DNA of 25,944 bases, from positions 1-25,944 of IMG/VR virus record IMGVR_UViG_3300000930_000008. The stretch is one strand, 5' to 3'. The position numbers and the translations under genes were made by a program. Positions 10,539 to 20,263 of this stretch are shown here, one piece after another. This DNA comes from a virus. Position 1 is the first letter of the stretch; every line of letters begins with the position of its first letter. Below the pieces are notes generated by a model. The model saw nothing but the letters and a program-made list of their open reading frames with translations, was not told the origin of the DNA and did not search any database.

Positions 10539-11905
10539 GCAAAGCTTTTTTAGATAAATATTTGGTCCAGATTTTAGAAGAACTTAAAAAGCCTTCTAAT
10601 GCAAAAAACGGTCAGGCAGGCTTTCGTGAATTAGTTTCCGACCGGAAGGTTCATAAGGTTAGTATGTCTGTGGCCGGAGTACGAAATCAAGTCATTGCAC
10701 AGTTAGTAGAAGAAAACATTCCACAAGAAATTATAGCTTCTGAAGAAATGAAGGCAGTGCTTGATAAGTGGATACCTAATCTTATCCATAAGATATATGA
10801 GAATGCAACTACGAAATATGCTAGTTCTCCCAATGTTAAGGTGAAAGGGAACAAGTCGGCATTTAGTATAGTAACTACACTAGTGGTGGGTGGCTATGAC
10901 CACGATACAAAAAGCTATGGTCCTTTAAGTGTATTTAAAAGTATAGGAACGCTATTTTCCTCACAAAAGAAAACACTTGTAAAGAGTATAAACGGTGTTC
11001 TAAGGGATGCTGGTAGTAACAAAAGAGCCAATAATAAAAAGTTCTTAGACTTGGGGCATAGAGATCAGTCTGAAGTAACACAGCAGCAAGTTCAAAGAGC
11101 TAAAAGTACTTATTTCTCAGCACTAGAGACAGCAGAACCTGGCGTGGAAATAAGTGCTGAGGACTTAAAGGCTATCGATCTTGAGTTATTTATAAGCAAA
11201 AAAGGTTCAATAGAAAAAGATGTGATTGAAGTAGGGTTCCAATCTGCTACTATAAATAGAGCCGATAAAAAAAGCCCTAAAGCAAGACAAGAGCTAATAG
11301 ACCAACTGACAAAGGCTGTGGCAACGTTAAACCAGACAAACGACCTAAGGTTAAGCGAAAGCTCAGACAGCAGAGTTACTGTAGAAAAAAAGAAAATACT
11401 TAATAGAGCGAAGAAAAACTTAAAAGCTAGTAAGAATCTTAAAGTAAATATTAAAGATACAAAAATTAAACTATCTAAAGCTAAAGGTAAAAAGACAGTA
11501 AAAGGGAAAGTAACCAGAGGTTCTGCTAAAAAGGTGCCTATCTCTATAGACGGTGTAAAGAAGATGCGAGGCAAGACCTCAGCAAACAGTACTATAGGTT
11601 TAGCCGCTTTGATAAATGCTAAACTCTCTAAGACAGTACAAGAAAATATGAGGTATCCCGCCCTTGTGAATAGAACAGGACGATTTGCACAAAGTGTACG
11701 AGTTGTGGATGCTATAACAACTACACAAGGATTTCCGAGTATAGGGTATACCTATCAAAAAAATCCTTACCAAATTTTTGAGGACGGTGCGGGTAAGGCA
11801 CCTTGGGCCAATGGTCAGCGAGACCCTCGGAAACTTATAGATTTATCTGTTAGAGAAATAGCTGCAGGGTTATTACATGGAAGATTTTACACTAGGAGAG
11901 TATAA
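10535..11905 (+). CDS. Neck or head-completion protein with large basic N-terminal region
   Basis: The 456-residue protein has no complete family match that I can name. Residues about 370-456 contain NRTGRFAQSVRV, a TTTQGFPSIGYTYQKNPYQIFE block and APWANGQRDPRKLIDLSV, a layout I associate with neck/tail-completion proteins. Residues about 105-185 include FLDLGHRDQSEVTQQQV, a motif I recall from phage structural proteins. Between them (about 285-345) lies a Lys-rich stretch (KKKILNRAKKNLKASKNLK). The slot between connector and tail terminator is where a head-closure and a neck protein normally sit, so this gene may combine both roles. AGGA lies four bases before the ATG. Confidence 0.55.
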   Translation: MSKAFLDKYLVQILEELKKPSNAKNGQAGFRELVSDRKVHKVSMSVAGVRNQVIAQLVEENIPQEIIASEEMKAVLDKWIPNLIHKIYENATTKYASSPNVKVKGNKSAFSIVTTLVVGGYDHDTKSYGPLSVFKSIGTLFSSQKKTLVKSINGVLRDAGSNKRANNKKFLDLGHRDQSEVTQQQVQRAKSTYFSALETAEPGVEISAEDLKAIDLELFISKKGSIEKDVIEVGFQSATINRADKKSPKARQELIDQLTKAVATLNQTNDLRLSESSDSRVTVEKKKILNRAKKNLKASKNLKVNIKDTKIKLSKAKGKKTVKGKVTRGSAKKVPISIDGVKKMRGKTSANSTIGLAALINAKLSKTVQENMRYPALVNRTGRFAQSVRVVDAITTTQGFPSIGYTYQKNPYQIFEDGAGKAPWANGQRDPRKLIDLSVREIAAGLLHGRFYTRRV

Positions 11906-13974: not shown

Positions 13975-14928
13975 GTGAGTTTTGAGTTTCTTCGGGAGGG
14001 AAGAGTATGGTTAGAGTACGATAGTACTTTCTATCTCTTGCATACTGATAAGGACATATCATTTTCTCAAACATTTCGTCAGGAAGATACAACAGTAAGA
14101 AGTCTACATAACAATTCAGATTTCTTCGAAGATTCCTCCATTGTAGATGCGAACCCCGCTGACTTTAGTTTCTCTATTTATCTAATAGCAAACGACAGCA
14201 CTCCTCTACACCAACATAAGCCCTTAGACTTATTGACGGAGTACTCAACTGATAATAACTTAAATACTTTTAATCTATATTTTGTATACTCGGATTATAG
14301 TCCTGAAACTTACTATAAAATAGAAAATTGTGTATTTACAGCCGGCTCATTTAATATACCTAGAAATGGTATTATGACTGTGGGCCTATCAGGACAAGGT
14401 ACTAAACTGACAAGAAATACAGGTCCAGGGTCGCCTATACCAGCACCATCTGCTGATTATACTTCTTCCCCCAACTTTGCAATTTCTAAACAGTTTGATA
14501 TATGGGCGACAGGTACATCTGTTGCACAATATAAACTGGACAATATCATAGGCGCGTCCCTAGAACTACAAAATAATGTTAACTGGACTAGTAATAATAC
14601 TTTACAAAAGTCTTTGTTAGTTACCGATGCAGATACTACAATTTATCCAGAGAATTTCACTCTAGATGGTAGGTCCCTTGCAGGAAGTATAGTTCAGTAT
14701 ATTAGCGAGTCTCAAACACTATCCAATGATAACGTTCAAACATGGGCTGAGAATACCTCAGTTATAATAAAAGCAGGATTAGGCAATTCTTACGGGTATC
14801 AACTTGAAGTTGATCTTGATAATAGAGCCTCTTTTACAAACAGAGCTACTTTCGGGGATGTTTTTACCCAAAGCTATGACTTTCGTTGTATGGGGAACCC
14901 TGCTATGAATTCAATATTTACATACTAG
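13975..14928 (+). CDS. Second tail tube-like protein (minor tube paralogue)
   Basis: The 317-residue protein starts at GTG 13975 with AGGAG six bases upstream. Its first 75 residues (SFEFLREGRVWLEYDSTFYL, DISFSQTFRQEDTTVRS, PADFSFSIYLI) align with the start of the preceding tube gene (FTRNAKVFVQL, GFSFTQAVNSSEITI, APVEWSMSTY). The C-terminal part has similar strand order (SIVQYISESQTL, GYQLEVDLDNRASF). It lacks the Ig insert. It is probably a paralogue that forms a specialised ring, such as a tube end or adaptor, or a second tube subunit. It has its own promoter and attenuator-like leader. Tube paralogy is read by eye and should be checked by structure prediction. Confidence 0.65.
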   Translation: MSFEFLREGRVWLEYDSTFYLLHTDKDISFSQTFRQEDTTVRSLHNNSDFFEDSSIVDANPADFSFSIYLIANDSTPLHQHKPLDLLTEYSTDNNLNTFNLYFVYSDYSPETYYKIENCVFTAGSFNIPRNGIMTVGLSGQGTKLTRNTGPGSPIPAPSADYTSSPNFAISKQFDIWATGTSVAQYKLDNIIGASLELQNNVNWTSNNTLQKSLLVTDADTTIYPENFTLDGRSLAGSIVQYISESQTLSNDNVQTWAENTSVIIKAGLGNSYGYQLEVDLDNRASFTNRATFGDVFTQSYDFRCMGNPAMNSIFTY

Positions 14929-14936
14929 GAGTATTA

Positions 14937-15386
14937 ATGAAATTAAAAGATTTAATGGTGGATACTAAAGCTGCATGGCTGGACTTCCCCGGAGCACCCG
15001 ATTTTCAAGTACAAGTAGCTAATCTTTCTCGCAAAGAATTGGTTTCACTTAGAAAGCGTTGTACGTCTAATAAGTTTGATAGAAAAAATCGACAAATGGT
15101 AGAGGACTTAGACGAAGAGAAGTTTGTTGTAGAGTTTACTAACGCTACAGTTAAGGGGTGGAAAGGCTTAAAACTTAAGTACTTGGAAGATTTGATTCTA
15201 GTTGATCTAAAATCAGAAGATCCAGAGCAAGAACTCGAATATGATCAAGAGCAGGCACAAGTGCTTGTTCAGAACTCTACAGAATTTGACACTTGGATAA
15301 ACGAGGTGGTTTTTGACCTTGCCAACTTTCGCCGAGCAGCAGATGGACAGTCTGTGGACCCGCTTAGAGAATTGGCAGCTTCATAA
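14937..15386 (+). CDS. Tail assembly chaperone, upstream frame (gpG-like)
   Basis: The 149-residue acidic protein starts at ATG 14937 with AGGAG five bases upstream. It has MKLKDLMVDTKAAWLDFPGA, an SRKELVSLRKRCTSNKFDRK helix, the FVVEFTNATVKGWKGLKLKY segment and a helical C-terminus (FDTWINEVVFDLANFRR). This is the usual layout of the first tail assembly chaperone, which binds the tape measure and recruits tube subunits. It lies directly before the second chaperone frame and the tape measure, the classic G/T position. Its last 86 bases overlap an open +1 frame, so part of the ribosomes probably shift to make a longer G-T protein. Confidence 0.75.
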   Translation: MKLKDLMVDTKAAWLDFPGAPDFQVQVANLSRKELVSLRKRCTSNKFDRKNRQMVEDLDEEKFVVEFTNATVKGWKGLKLKYLEDLILVDLKSEDPEQELEYDQEQAQVLVQNSTEFDTWINEVVFDLANFRRAADGQSVDPLRELAAS

Positions 15387-15726
15387 CGATACTGGCATGT
15401 CCAAGGATAAGTATTTGGACATGCAAGAGCAGTTAGGTCGAGAGCCAAACCCTGAGAAATGTCCCCCAGGTGTCGAAGATTTTCCTGAGATAGTCGTTGA
15501 GGCTATTGGAATCTTTAATTCTTTAGGTGATAGGGTGTACCCAGATATAGGGTATATTGGAAAAGATTATACAAACTTAGAGTTTTTAATCAATGCTTAC
15601 AAAATAGATGATAAAGAATTACTTTATGACATTCTATTAAGACTCGATGGTCATGCAATAAAGAAGTCTCAAGAGGCTTTGAAGCGTGAACACGATAAAA
15701 TAAAGAGTAAAAGTCGTGGCAAATAG
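15301..15726 (+). CDS. Tail assembly chaperone, downstream frame (gpT-like, frameshift product)
   Basis: This frame is open from 15301 and encodes ENWQLHNDTGMSKDKYLDMQ, EQLGREPNPEKCPPGVEDFP and a C-terminal basic helix. I recognise it as the T part of a G-T tail chaperone. No good start codon with a Shine-Dalgarno exists in this frame: ATG at 15343 and 15397 lack one. The conserved-looking WQLH segment precedes the second of these. It is therefore most likely translated by a +1 (or -2) shift from the upstream frame within 15301-15386. A single fused product would be about 262 residues. It ends inside the tape measure start (overlap 11 bases). Confidence 0.7.
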   Translation, partial: TRWFLTLPTFAEQQMDSLWTRLENWQLHNDTGMSKDKYLDMQEQLGREPNPEKCPPGVEDFPEIVVEAIGIFNSLGDRVYPDIGYIGKDYTNLEFLINAYKIDDKELLYDILLRLDGHAIKKSQEALKREHDKIKSKSRGK

Positions 15727-18700
15727 TGTAACCTTAGAAGTTATCCTTGAGGGGAAAAATCTAAAAGTAGTCCAGAAAGATATGGACAAGCTTACTACGT
15801 CTACAAATAAATCTGCTACGGCCCAGGAAAGACTAACTAAAACTGGGAAAAAGCATCATAAAGGTGCAAAAGGTGTAGCAGGAGCGACTGCAAACGGCAC
15901 TAAAGCCTTCTCAAAAATGCGTAATGAAATCGGAGGAGGTTCCTCCGGTCTTGTTGGCGCATATGCTACGCTTGCTGCAAACGTCTTTGCGGCTACAGCA
16001 GTATTTTATGCTCTTAGAAAAGCTGCTCAATTTGAAAGCATAATTCAAGGCTTGGAAAGAACGGGCAATGCTGCAGGAACAAATTTACCTCTTATAGCAG
16101 ATAATTTAAAAAAGATAACTGGAGCCGCTATTACTACTAGGCAAGCTATGGAATCTGTAGCTATAGGTTCTTCTGCAGGATTTGATTCTACTCAATTAGA
16201 AAACTTAACTAAAGTTGCTAAAGGAGCCTCAATAGCTTTAGGTAGAGACATGTCTGATTCTTTGGACAGGTTAATACGGGGTGCTGCTAAGCTGGAACCA
16301 GAAATTGTAGATGAATTGGGTATTATGGTAAGACTAGATGATGCTACAGCAGACTATGCTGAGTCTTTAGGCAAAACAGCAGCACAATTAACACAGAATC
16401 AAAGGCAACAAGCTTTCTTAAACGCTATAAATGAACAAGGATTAAAAAAATATGGAGATATAGCGGATAACATAGATATTAATGCTTTTGATACTTTGGC
16501 AGCCGCTTTCTCCGATATGGCCACTAGCCTGACCACCTTTCTCAATAAAGCTTTAATTCCTATTGCAACGTTTTTCTCCGAACACCAAGGAGCTTTACTA
16601 GGGGTTTCTATTCTTTTTGCTTCTACGATTTCCAAACAAATGGTTCCAGCACTATATGGGATGGCTGACGGACTAGCCTCCGCAGCATCAGCTCAAGCAG
16701 CTCAAGCTAAAGAAGGTTTAAAAGGCCTACATACTGTTAGTAAGGGAGAAACTGCCTATAGTAAGTATTTAGCTAAAGTAGACGCTGGTACAGATACTTT
16801 AGAAGATGCTAGAGAAGGTCACCATAGTCTGGGGTTAAGTATAGCTCAAAAAGAGAGACACTTAAAAACCCTGACGGGTGAGGTAGGTAAAGCAGGTACT
16901 GCCATGGATATCTATAGCAAGGAAATTGATGATGTTAGGAGACAGCAGATTGCTCTAGCACAATCTATGCAGCTTAGCCAGGCTGCACTGGCTAAGCAAA
17001 CAGGAGCAACTGCGGTAGCTAATTTCGGTAATTTCCAATTTAAACTTGGTTGGCAAAATCTAACATTATCTGTAGAACAATATAAATTAAGCTTAGTAAC
17101 TGCAGGGGTTAAAACTACCCTGTGGGGAGCTATTGTAAACCTTGCTAAACTTGCAACATACTCTTTTGCTTTGTCTCTTAAAGCTGTAGGTGCTGCTGCC
17201 ATGAGTGCTCTAGGTCCTTTAGGCCTATTATGGACGGTGGGTACTCTGATATGGGACTGGTACAAAGAGAATTTCATGCAACCCTCAGAAATAGAAAAGA
17301 GAGCTAAAGCATACGTTGACAGTTTAGAAAATATTAAAGCAGCTAATGACCAATTAGCACAAAGTCATGCTGAAGGATCTGATTTAATTATAGCAAAGTA
17401 CAAAGTAGCTATAGGATTTATAAATGATACTTCAACTAGAATGATTAAAAGTGCTAGAGAAGAGGCAGCCGCTAATAAAGCGGCTGCTATAGTAAAGTGG
17501 AACGCAGCCAAAGAAGTCGCTGCGCAAATATTAGTAGAGGCGGCTGCCTTAAAGACAATAGGGGAGACGCAGGGGGTACTTTCAGCAGCATACACGACTC
17601 AAGAAGCACACGTTAAACGTCTTGTCACTAAGATGAATGAACTTGATACTGCGGGCACTAACCTTGGTAAAGCTGCTGTATATGTGGATAAGAATAGTGC
17701 TTCATTTAAAAATCTAGGAGCAACTATTAAGGAACTGGAAGAGCAGAGTGAAACTAACGTAATTACTAAAGCATATACTGATAAATTAAAAGAACTGGAG
17801 ACTTCAGTTCTCAAGGGTTCTCTTAGTCAGGAAAAGTTCAATGAAGCATTGAAAGCCGCTGGATTGGAAGCCAAGACTGCTAAAGGGTTTGTAAATAGTA
17901 TTACTGGATCTTTTTCTCTCTTTGCGAAAGAACTAACTAAACTTCAACTTAAAAAGACTACTCCTTTTGATGGGCTGCTACAGTCTTCTATATCCTTACA
18001 AAATGAATTTACGGAACTGGCGACGAAAGGAGGAAAAATGGGAGAAGTCCTTCTGGGTAATCTATCCTCTCTAGTTCCTGGGTTTGAAAAGGCTTTTGGT
18101 GAGGGAAAAGGAGATGAGGCAATAAATACCTATGTAACCAGTCTTCAAGAGGCCGTAGACACTTTAAAGAGGTTTCCATCTGAGCTGAAAAAGATCAAAA
18201 CAGACCAGAAAATTATTAATGGGCTTGCTAAATTCTCGGTTTCTGCTTCACAAGAGGCGCTGAAGTTAAGAAAAGACGAAATAACTTTAAGAGAGGACGA
18301 GGTAGCAGCATTAGAGACAGCGAAGGAAGCTAGTGGGGTTCTTGGAGAAACTGAGCTAAAAATTCTTGAGACAAAAAAAGCAGAGCTAAGAGTTCTTAAA
18401 GCACAAAATGCAGAAGGAATAGAAACTACTAGGATAGCAATAACTACGGCTAAGTTAGCAAAAGAAGTACTGGGGATAGAAAATAAGCTACTGGGTGCTA
18501 GACGAAAAGGGATGGACTTAGCTAGGGATCTTTTAAAGACAGAAATATTAATAGCAAAAGCTAAGGAACCCGGTACTGAAGATATTAAGCTTACGGCGCA
18601 GGAAGAGTTGGGTATTTTCCTTTTACAGAAAAAAGCTAGGCAAAATTTAATCCAGCAAGAAACGGATATGAAATCGGCTATGAATGAGGTGGAGTTCACA

Positions 18701-20263
18701 TTGTTGAGCTTGAAGTTCAAGCTTATAGCAGAACAGCTTGCGGCTAATGAGAAACTGTCTGAGGACGATAAGAAGAGACTAGGAGGTATACAAGCTACGT
18801 TGGCTAAAGCTGAGTCTCTTAATGAAAAAAATATCCAAACTGAAGGTAAGTTAAGACTAGCACAGATAGAGTTAGAGCACCAGACTAAACTTAGAAACGT
18901 TAGAAAAGAAGTACTCGAATCTACAAAGGGCGCTAAAACTGTAGCGGAATCCTTTTTAAATCTGGGTAAATCTTTAACAATAAACCCTAAGATTGAGGAA
19001 GCTAATAAGGCTAAGATTCAATCAGCAATAAAAGAAAAAGAAAAAACTACAATAGCTGCTGGGGAAGGAAAGGGAGAAGGAGGGGCTCTAGATGCGAAGC
19101 AAAAAGAGGCAATAACGGCTGAAATAACAGCAGCTATGACTATACCCGACCCTTTCGCTAACCTTAATTTTGCAGAGAAAATTAGTGTGATGGTTAGCGC
19201 CTTTGCTCCGTTAAAAGCTGAATTTGCTAAATTAGGGCCTGAAGGCGAACTAGTAGTTTCTATGATGGTGGGTTTAGAGACTATGGCCGCAGGCTTTGAA
19301 AATACCTTTAATAAAATAGCTGAGATTATGAGTGAGACTGAAATGACAAGTTTTGCCAGTTTTAAACAGGCGTGGACTGAGTTAGGTGACCCAGAAAAGG
19401 CAGAAATCCTTTCTGCGGCTTTTTCTGCAGTTGCAAACAGTATAGGAGCTCTAGCTGGAATTATGGCCTCTGCCAGTAGAAATACAGTGGCTGGAATAGA
19501 CAGAGAAATAGCCGCAGAAAAGAAAAGAGATGGAAAGTCAAAAGAAAGTTTAAATAAAATTAGAGGGTTAGAAGCTAAAAAAGAAGCTCAGAAGAAAAAA
19601 GCTTTTGAGCAAAATAAGAAAATGATGATGGCTCAAGTGATTATGAGTACTGCTGCAGCTTATATGGGTATTATGGCTGCTGAAGCTTCAAGCGTTGGAT
19701 TTTTAGCACCCGCCCTAGCTGGTATAGCTTTAGTTCTGGGAGCAGCTCAACTTGCTATTATTGCAGGAACGTCTTATCAAGGAGGGGGTAGTAGTGTTGG
19801 GTCTTCACCATCGTCATCAACTACATCTGTAGGACAGAGAAAGTCTTCAGTTGACCTAGCAACTTCTAAATCTGCTTCAGGCGAAAACGCTTACTTCCGT
19901 GGATCACGAGGAATGGGAGGACCGGGAGACTTTGTACCTACCGGCGCTATGATGGGTGCGAAGTACAGAAATGAGGGTGGACCTACTACAGGTTATGTAG
20001 TAGGAGAGCAGGGGCCAGAATTATTTATGCCCGATCGTCCAGGAACTATTATTCCCAATGACGAAATTAGCTCCTCCTCTCAAAATGTAAACATCTCAAT
20101 AAATGCTATTGACTCTAGAGGAGTTGAGCAGGTGCTAGTAGAACAACGGGGCAACATTATCGGTATGATTAGAGATGCTGCAAATAACATTGGGGAAGAA
20201 TTTTACGAAGATATAGATACTTCAATTTACACCCCTGAGTCAGCAGGCGCGAGGCTTTACTAG
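15716..20263 (+). CDS. Tape measure protein
   Basis: The 1515-residue protein sets tail length; at about 0.15 nm per residue this predicts a tail of roughly 225 nm (inference). It starts at GTG 15716 (MANSVTLEVILEGKNLKVVQ) with no strong Shine-Dalgarno and overlaps the chaperone gene by 11 bases. Hydrophobic segments lie at about 78-100, 292-305, 480-515 and 1303-1355, with long charged coiled coils between (about 820-1130). The C-terminus carries the tape-measure signature GYVVGEQGPELFMPDRPG, then TIIPNDE and a final helix (VEQVLVEQRGNIIGMIRDAA in register). It is the largest complete gene here. No lysozyme or peptidase domain is visible. Confidence 0.92.
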   Translation: MANSVTLEVILEGKNLKVVQKDMDKLTTSTNKSATAQERLTKTGKKHHKGAKGVAGATANGTKAFSKMRNEIGGGSSGLVGAYATLAANVFAATAVFYALRKAAQFESIIQGLERTGNAAGTNLPLIADNLKKITGAAITTRQAMESVAIGSSAGFDSTQLENLTKVAKGASIALGRDMSDSLDRLIRGAAKLEPEIVDELGIMVRLDDATADYAESLGKTAAQLTQNQRQQAFLNAINEQGLKKYGDIADNIDINAFDTLAAAFSDMATSLTTFLNKALIPIATFFSEHQGALLGVSILFASTISKQMVPALYGMADGLASAASAQAAQAKEGLKGLHTVSKGETAYSKYLAKVDAGTDTLEDAREGHHSLGLSIAQKERHLKTLTGEVGKAGTAMDIYSKEIDDVRRQQIALAQSMQLSQAALAKQTGATAVANFGNFQFKLGWQNLTLSVEQYKLSLVTAGVKTTLWGAIVNLAKLATYSFALSLKAVGAAAMSALGPLGLLWTVGTLIWDWYKENFMQPSEIEKRAKAYVDSLENIKAANDQLAQSHAEGSDLIIAKYKVAIGFINDTSTRMIKSAREEAAANKAAAIVKWNAAKEVAAQILVEAAALKTIGETQGVLSAAYTTQEAHVKRLVTKMNELDTAGTNLGKAAVYVDKNSASFKNLGATIKELEEQSETNVITKAYTDKLKELETSVLKGSLSQEKFNEALKAAGLEAKTAKGFVNSITGSFSLFAKELTKLQLKKTTPFDGLLQSSISLQNEFTELATKGGKMGEVLLGNLSSLVPGFEKAFGEGKGDEAINTYVTSLQEAVDTLKRFPSELKKIKTDQKIINGLAKFSVSASQEALKLRKDEITLREDEVAALETAKEASGVLGETELKILETKKAELRVLKAQNAEGIETTRIAITTAKLAKEVLGIENKLLGARRKGMDLARDLLKTEILIAKAKEPGTEDIKLTAQEELGIFLLQKKARQNLIQQETDMKSAMNEVEFTLLSLKFKLIAEQLAANEKLSEDDKKRLGGIQATLAKAESLNEKNIQTEGKLRLAQIELEHQTKLRNVRKEVLESTKGAKTVAESFLNLGKSLTINPKIEEANKAKIQSAIKEKEKTTIAAGEGKGEGGALDAKQKEAITAEITAAMTIPDPFANLNFAEKISVMVSAFAPLKAEFAKLGPEGELVVSMMVGLETMAAGFENTFNKIAEIMSETEMTSFASFKQAWTELGDPEKAEILSAAFSAVANSIGALAGIMASASRNTVAGIDREIAAEKKRDGKSKESLNKIRGLEAKKEAQKKKAFEQNKKMMMAQVIMSTAAAYMGIMAAEASSVGFLAPALAGIALVLGAAQLAIIAGTSYQGGGSSVGSSPSSSTTSVGQRKSSVDLATSKSASGENAYFRGSRGMGGPGDFVPTGAMMGAKYRNEGGPTTGYVVGEQGPELFMPDRPGTIIPNDEISSSSQNVNISINAIDSRGVEQVLVEQRGNIIGMIRDAANNIGEEFYEDIDTSIYTPESAGARLY

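Follow-up and report, generated by a model that had tools for sequence, protein, structure and literature searches.

The stretch of DNA analysed here, a viral record of 25.9 kb that we call the window, carries a T5-like tail module comprising a major tail protein, a baseplate tail tube protein, two chaperone ORFs and a tape measure protein. The two chaperone ORFs overlap in different frames. After a stop at 15298–15300 the +1 frame opens at 15301 and runs to 15726. As frame 0 stops at 15386, a shift is permitted only within the 86 nt from 15301 to 15386. An earlier note on this DNA had given the same limits for the upstream frame (14937–15386), the opening of the +1 frame and the permitted interval, and the three candidate sites that it named are all present: TTT-C at 15327–15330, CTT-AGA-G at 15363–15369 and a T5 run at 15310–15314. 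A shift at TTT_C joins the frames as join(14937..15329,15331..15726) and yields 262 aa, which agrees with the fusion of about 262 residues predicted there.

The assignment of both ORFs as tail assembly chaperones, also made in the earlier note, was borne out by matches to phrog_313 and phrog_3914 and by the tape measure gene (phrog_3779) next downstream (Table 1). The fused sequence spans positions 13–253 of the 258 positions of phrog_313; a single PHROG profile holds both parts. Pfam TAC_5 matched the chaperone ORFs only below its cut-off, and searches of PDB and NCBIfam gave no match. In common with tail assembly chaperone G/GT pairs, the locus has an overlapping ORF pair in different frames 5' of a tape measure gene, homology to known chaperones and, as described below, a conserved slippery site within the overlap. 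Elsewhere in the window, on the minus strand at 299–1429, three paralogous ORFs stand side by side; they are rich in alanine/aspartate repeats (AADAADAA) and have common ends (IEVAKRWLEGE ... YWVKQYEELT).

Table 1. Features of the chaperone locus, in window coordinates
Feature	Position	Strand	Basis
Baseplate tail tube gene (T5 p140-like), directly 5' of the chaperone ORFs	13975..14928	+	phrog_3889, 2.1e-12; PF23779, 2.8e-12
Shine-Dalgarno AGGAG of the first chaperone ORF	14927..14931	+	Sequence; Shine-Dalgarno sequences precede 156/159 homologous first ORFs
First chaperone ORF, gpG-like	14937..15386	+	ATG 14937 to TAA 15386, 149 aa without shift; phrog_313 tail assembly chaperone, 8.5e-15
Synonymously constrained stretch of the marine clade, codons 121–125	15297..15311	+	ATA AAC GAG GTG GTT in the window
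Shift site AAC_TTT_CGC (E, P and A codons)	15324..15332	+	TTT_CGN in 159/160 +1-class relatives; intersection of permitted intervals
+1-frame extension, gpT-like	15331..15726	+	131 aa after the shift; phrog_3914 tail assembly chaperone, 3.6e-19
Tape measure protein gene, directly 3' of the chaperone ORFs	15716..20263	+	phrog_3779, 2.8e-79

Relatives of the locus were collected to locate the shift. We fetched 149 loci with both ORFs from viral contigs. A first pass covered 115 distinct sequences, window included; the second ORF was in the +1 frame in all of them, and TTTCG lay near the start of the shared region in every sequence except one contig (L010). The T5-like phages Brizo, My1, T5_ev219, RCIP0070, pVp-1, D149, Eos, D239, Ceto, X1, Gostya9, Sealy, OSY-STA, T5 (AY587007), phiR2-01, KKP_3711 and Sugarland were added, as were further contigs. 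A scan of genome contigs found no relatives. The 180 distinct pairs overlap only in +1 or −1, and none is in-frame. The +1 class has 161 members, including L010, which lacks the site, and Aeromonas phage Akh-2, in which TAG appears to be sense; the other 159 carry an in-frame TTT_CGN. Among +1-class relatives, which include marine contigs, T5, Sugarland, My1 and Vibrio phages, this motif thus stands at the equivalent place in 159/160. UUU followed by C occupies the P site and CGN the A site, the latter codon being CGT in 137 sequences, CGC in 16 and CGA in 6 (n=159). L010 has an apparent in-frame deletion of ~48 nt over the site, which is either an assembly error or a natural loss.

The overlaps themselves restrict the position of the shift. 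In the T5 group and Sugarland the nearest upstream +1 stop is so close that this frame opens no earlier than 5 nt ahead of TTT, and in My1, D149 and D239 the frame-0 stop directly follows CGN, so that the entire overlap of these three phages is 14 nt, ending CTTTCGTTAA. In T5 and Sugarland TTT_CGT lies inside an overlap of 26 or 38 nt. The permitted intervals of the relatives intersect in 14 nt, from −5 to +9 around TTT, and TTT_C is the sole codon in this intersection able to re-pair after moving forward by one base. Four phages examined after the rule had been fixed all obey it: Proteus phage 2 (AAC_TTT_CGT), Vibrio phage SJ1 (AAC_TTT_CGA) and the Aeromonas phages AhSzq-1 and Akh-2 (TTT_CGA with TAG as sense). 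Akh-2 had been taken for an exception; this was dropped once reading TAG as sense restored the site.

In these two Shenzhenvirus phages, AhSzq-1 (NC_047949, L229–L231) and Akh-2 (MK318083, L225), TAG is apparently read as sense. Coverage by ORFs of at least 200 aa rises from 0.30 to 0.66 with TAG as sense, compared with 0.33 for TGA and 0.40 for TAA. At positions 62795–62869 the record holds a tRNA whose anticodon is CUA. The GenBank annotation of these phages is shredded, apparently for this reason.

The earlier note had looked to an alignment of relatives, and this alignment fixes the site as TTT_CGC (15327–15332) and the direction as +1. The note had left +1 and −2 open; the relatives decide for +1. 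Of its candidate sites the first, TTT-C, stands. Few relatives or none share the T5 run, CTT-AGA or the start at 15343 with the window (ALTERNATIVES). A Mu-like −2 slip on the T5 run, by which GTT TTT G in the window could let tRNA-Phe move two bases back, is hardly credible: the run occurs in 7/116 marine relatives, and 109/159 sequences have a +1 stop 3' of its place. Such a slip is excluded for the family. We give equally little weight to a Ty1-like +1 shift at CTT-AGA-G. Its sequence resembles CUU-AGG-C, and AGA and AGG are slow codons in E. coli, but CTTAG is found in 2/159 relatives, frame 0 is already unconstrained at this point, and many relatives stop frame 0 earlier. Transcriptional slippage joining both frames would allow a fusion without a ribosomal shift. 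No computed result favours it, and we regard it as extremely improbable: no more than four bases are identical at the conserved site, and known transcriptional slippage tracts are longer than that.

Codon usage at the site departs from that elsewhere in the same genes. All 116 marine genes have TTT, and all 116 have CGN, whereas elsewhere in these ORFs TTC makes up 18% of the other Phe codons and AGR 57% of the other Arg codons; in T5-like genes TTC accounts for about half of the other Phe codons. Assuming independence among 70 clusters with <80% DNA identity, the probability of this occurring by chance was estimated at ~1e-10 for TTT and ~1e-21 for CGN, although these figures ignore relatedness and are indicative only. 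The motif alone is not unusual, as the window's genes contain five in-frame TTT_CGN against 3.3 expected; it is conservation at one place that exceeds chance. The four other occurrences, at 10622, 14074, 14881 and 24798, are in structural genes. Low-level slipping is possible there, and context must therefore matter.

Coding constraint changes frame at the site. Of the 159 sequences, 149 have a +1 stop in the 10 codons preceding the site and none has one in the 40 codons 3' of it. In the marine set the codons after CGN have a pN/pS of 1.37 in frame 0 and 0.50 in the +1 frame; in the T5-like phages, +1 pN/pS is 0.50 over the stretch from the frame-0 stop to a conserved Met. In the marine set few codons separate the zero-frame stop from this Met, so that the coding argument there rests mostly on the T5-like phages. 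These data bear on the alternative that no fusion is made and that the second ORF forms a gene of its own, with coupling or reinitiation past the first stop giving a start at ATG 15397, the only conserved internal Met. This ATG is kept in 144/159 sequences, which leaves some room for internal initiation, and most database annotations place the start of the second ORF at or near it. However, an SD-like AGGA, GGAG or GAGG precedes this Met in only 4/144 sequences, compared with the 156/159 first ORFs that have a Shine-Dalgarno sequence; the Met is replaced by Ile, Phe or Leu in ~10 relatives, including Eos, Sugarland and Brizo; and the +1-only residues before it are under purifying selection (pN/pS 0.50). 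An internal start would also leave unexplained both the constraint on TTT_CGN and the −1 heptamers of a sister clade. We therefore consider a separate gene unlikely. The earlier note had named a separate protein starting at 15343 or 15397 as the outcome that would speak against its proposal; both starts are disfavoured, ATG 15343 being unique to the window and Met 15397 lacking a Shine-Dalgarno sequence. Taken together, the programmed shift into the +1 frame proposed in that note is strongly supported, and comparison at the sequence level establishes the site, the +1 direction and the coding of both frames.

In the sister clade, comprising 19 contigs (part of L194–L218, and L222), the second ORF lies in −1. 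All 19 have an in-frame canonical heptamer exactly at the position of the +1 site, G_GGA_AAC in 10 and A_AAT_TTT in 9. These contigs form one side of a branch (97/90); the marine +1 group is next to them, and the T5-like +1 group lies farther off. A single change would suffice for the exchange of +1 and −1 on this unrooted tree. If the fusion had no use, it would be difficult to account for two unrelated mechanisms that connect these protein parts at an identical point. In many of the −1 relatives AGGT occurs ~9–12 nt 5' of the heptamer.

We also looked for candidate stimulators around the +1 site. Marine relatives share a consensus at codons 121–125, CTC AAY GAG GTA GTC, 30 to 16 nt before TTT, within the stretch CTCAACGAGGTAGTC. 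Synonymous conservation is high, with GAG in 114/116 sequences (GAA is commoner elsewhere), GTC in 104/116 and GTA in 98/116; the T5-like phages are without this element. A search for consensus RNA structure near the site found none beyond a weak 5-bp hairpin, which covers codons 121–125 and shows no compensatory changes. Single RNA folds around the site were unremarkable to moderate (z −0.1 to −2.6). GAGGT together with TTG 15313 was rejected as an internal start; most marine relatives have TTG ACY TAG at that place.

The most likely explanation for these results, to which we assign a probability of roughly 0.92 on sequence grounds, is that a 149-aa chaperone is the main product and that a minor +1 slip at UUU_CGN produces a 262-aa fusion in a ratio set for tail assembly. 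We infer the tRNA step, the efficiency and the role of the chaperones as follows. Most ribosomes would end at 15386 and release a gpG-like tape measure chaperone. A small fraction would slip with tRNA-Phe (anticodon GAA) on UUU in the P site and the arginine codon CGN in the A site; the tRNA would re-pair from TTT (15327–15329) to TTC (15328–15330), whereby a wobble G-U pair becomes G-C. Reading would resume with GCC at 15331 and produce the gpGT-like fusion. The shift would thereby keep the short-to-long chaperone ratio fixed and low for tail assembly, which in lambda is achieved by −1 shifting. Arginine CGU is common, not rare, in E. coli (table 1, PMC3498833), so that the hungry-codon argument has no force for T5 and a rare codon is not the aid.

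Forward slippage on UUU-pyrimidine in E. coli was reportedly described by Schwartz and Curran in 1997, and Fu and Parker are said to have studied argI frameshifting in E. coli in 1994. The E. coli UUU-pyrimidine shifts are laboratory or error shifts, unlike the conserved programme found here. In a prfB-type +1 shift the A site holds a stop codon and a Shine-Dalgarno sequence lies ~3 nt upstream, whereas here the A site is CGN. The sole SD-like sequence near the site, GAGGT at −24 to −20, was rejected in such a role because its 19-nt spacing to TTT is too long and because it is confined to the marine clade and absent in T5. The locus likewise lacks a conserved CUU-AGR of the Ty1 type and a conserved tract for a Mu-type slip of two bases backwards. 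Mu and phage 9g (PMC3498833, PMC4276943) enter this frame in this gene pair by −2 shifts, but no long T run is present here. The lambda G/GT shift is −1 on X_XXY_YYZ (Xu, Hendrix and Duda 2004; PMC5009743), in contrast to +1 at UUU_CGN.

The closest likeness is to influenza A PA-X, UCC_UUU_CGU (PMC3498833), with which the site shares P-site UUU_C, A-site CGN and the +1 direction. In Pectobacterium phage My1 the nonamer TCC_TTT_CGT is identical to that of PA-X. The ribosomes here are bacterial, the E-site codon is usually AAC, AAT or ACT (AAC in the window, UCC only in My1), and the outcome is an extended structural chaperone rather than a truncated polymerase subunit. The lack of UCC in the E site reduces the identity with PA-X but leaves the likeness intact, as the predicted PAX-like class is described in terms of a restricted choice of E-site codons (PMC3498833). 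According to the same work, eukaryotic viruses should have a class of UUU_C sites with a preference for CGN in the A site; whether cellular gene expression also makes use of such motifs was not decided there. Shifts of +1 in tail genes also occur in Listeria Tsh and SPP1 gp17.1 (PMC3498833), which are tail tube genes and not chaperones, and in the chaperone of the archaeal virus HSTV-2 (PMC5009743); these are likened by direction, not by shift-site sequence.

Tail chaperone frameshifts, +1 shifts in phage tail genes and UUU_CGN from influenza are thus already known. As far as the literature examined shows, the novelty lies in combining them, in how this combination is conserved across the T5 family and in the exchange of +1 and −1; earlier recognition is possible in the subscription literature, which lay outside the comparison. 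The Sugarland genome announcement (PMC6256483, citing Zivanovic 2014) states that in this phage, 'similar to T5', a frameshift signal was not predicted for the tape measure chaperone, and in the annotated records examined the chaperone halves are separate CDS or unannotated. We think it probable that the T5 family (Demerecviridae and marine relatives) has a PA-X-type +1 shift at UUU_CGN, overlooked in T5 itself, with −1 at the same position in a sister clade and the fusion conserved, and that the upstream element may be a new +1 stimulator. The conserved UUU_CGN contradicts the reported absence of a signal in T5 and Sugarland and would mean correcting how hundreds of T5-like genomes are annotated. 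The puzzle posed by PA-X, why a non-rare CGN in the A site helps, would move into E. coli, a species whose tRNAs and ribosomes are open to manipulation, and the change from +1 to −1 at one position would be a natural experiment on the evolution of frameshift direction.
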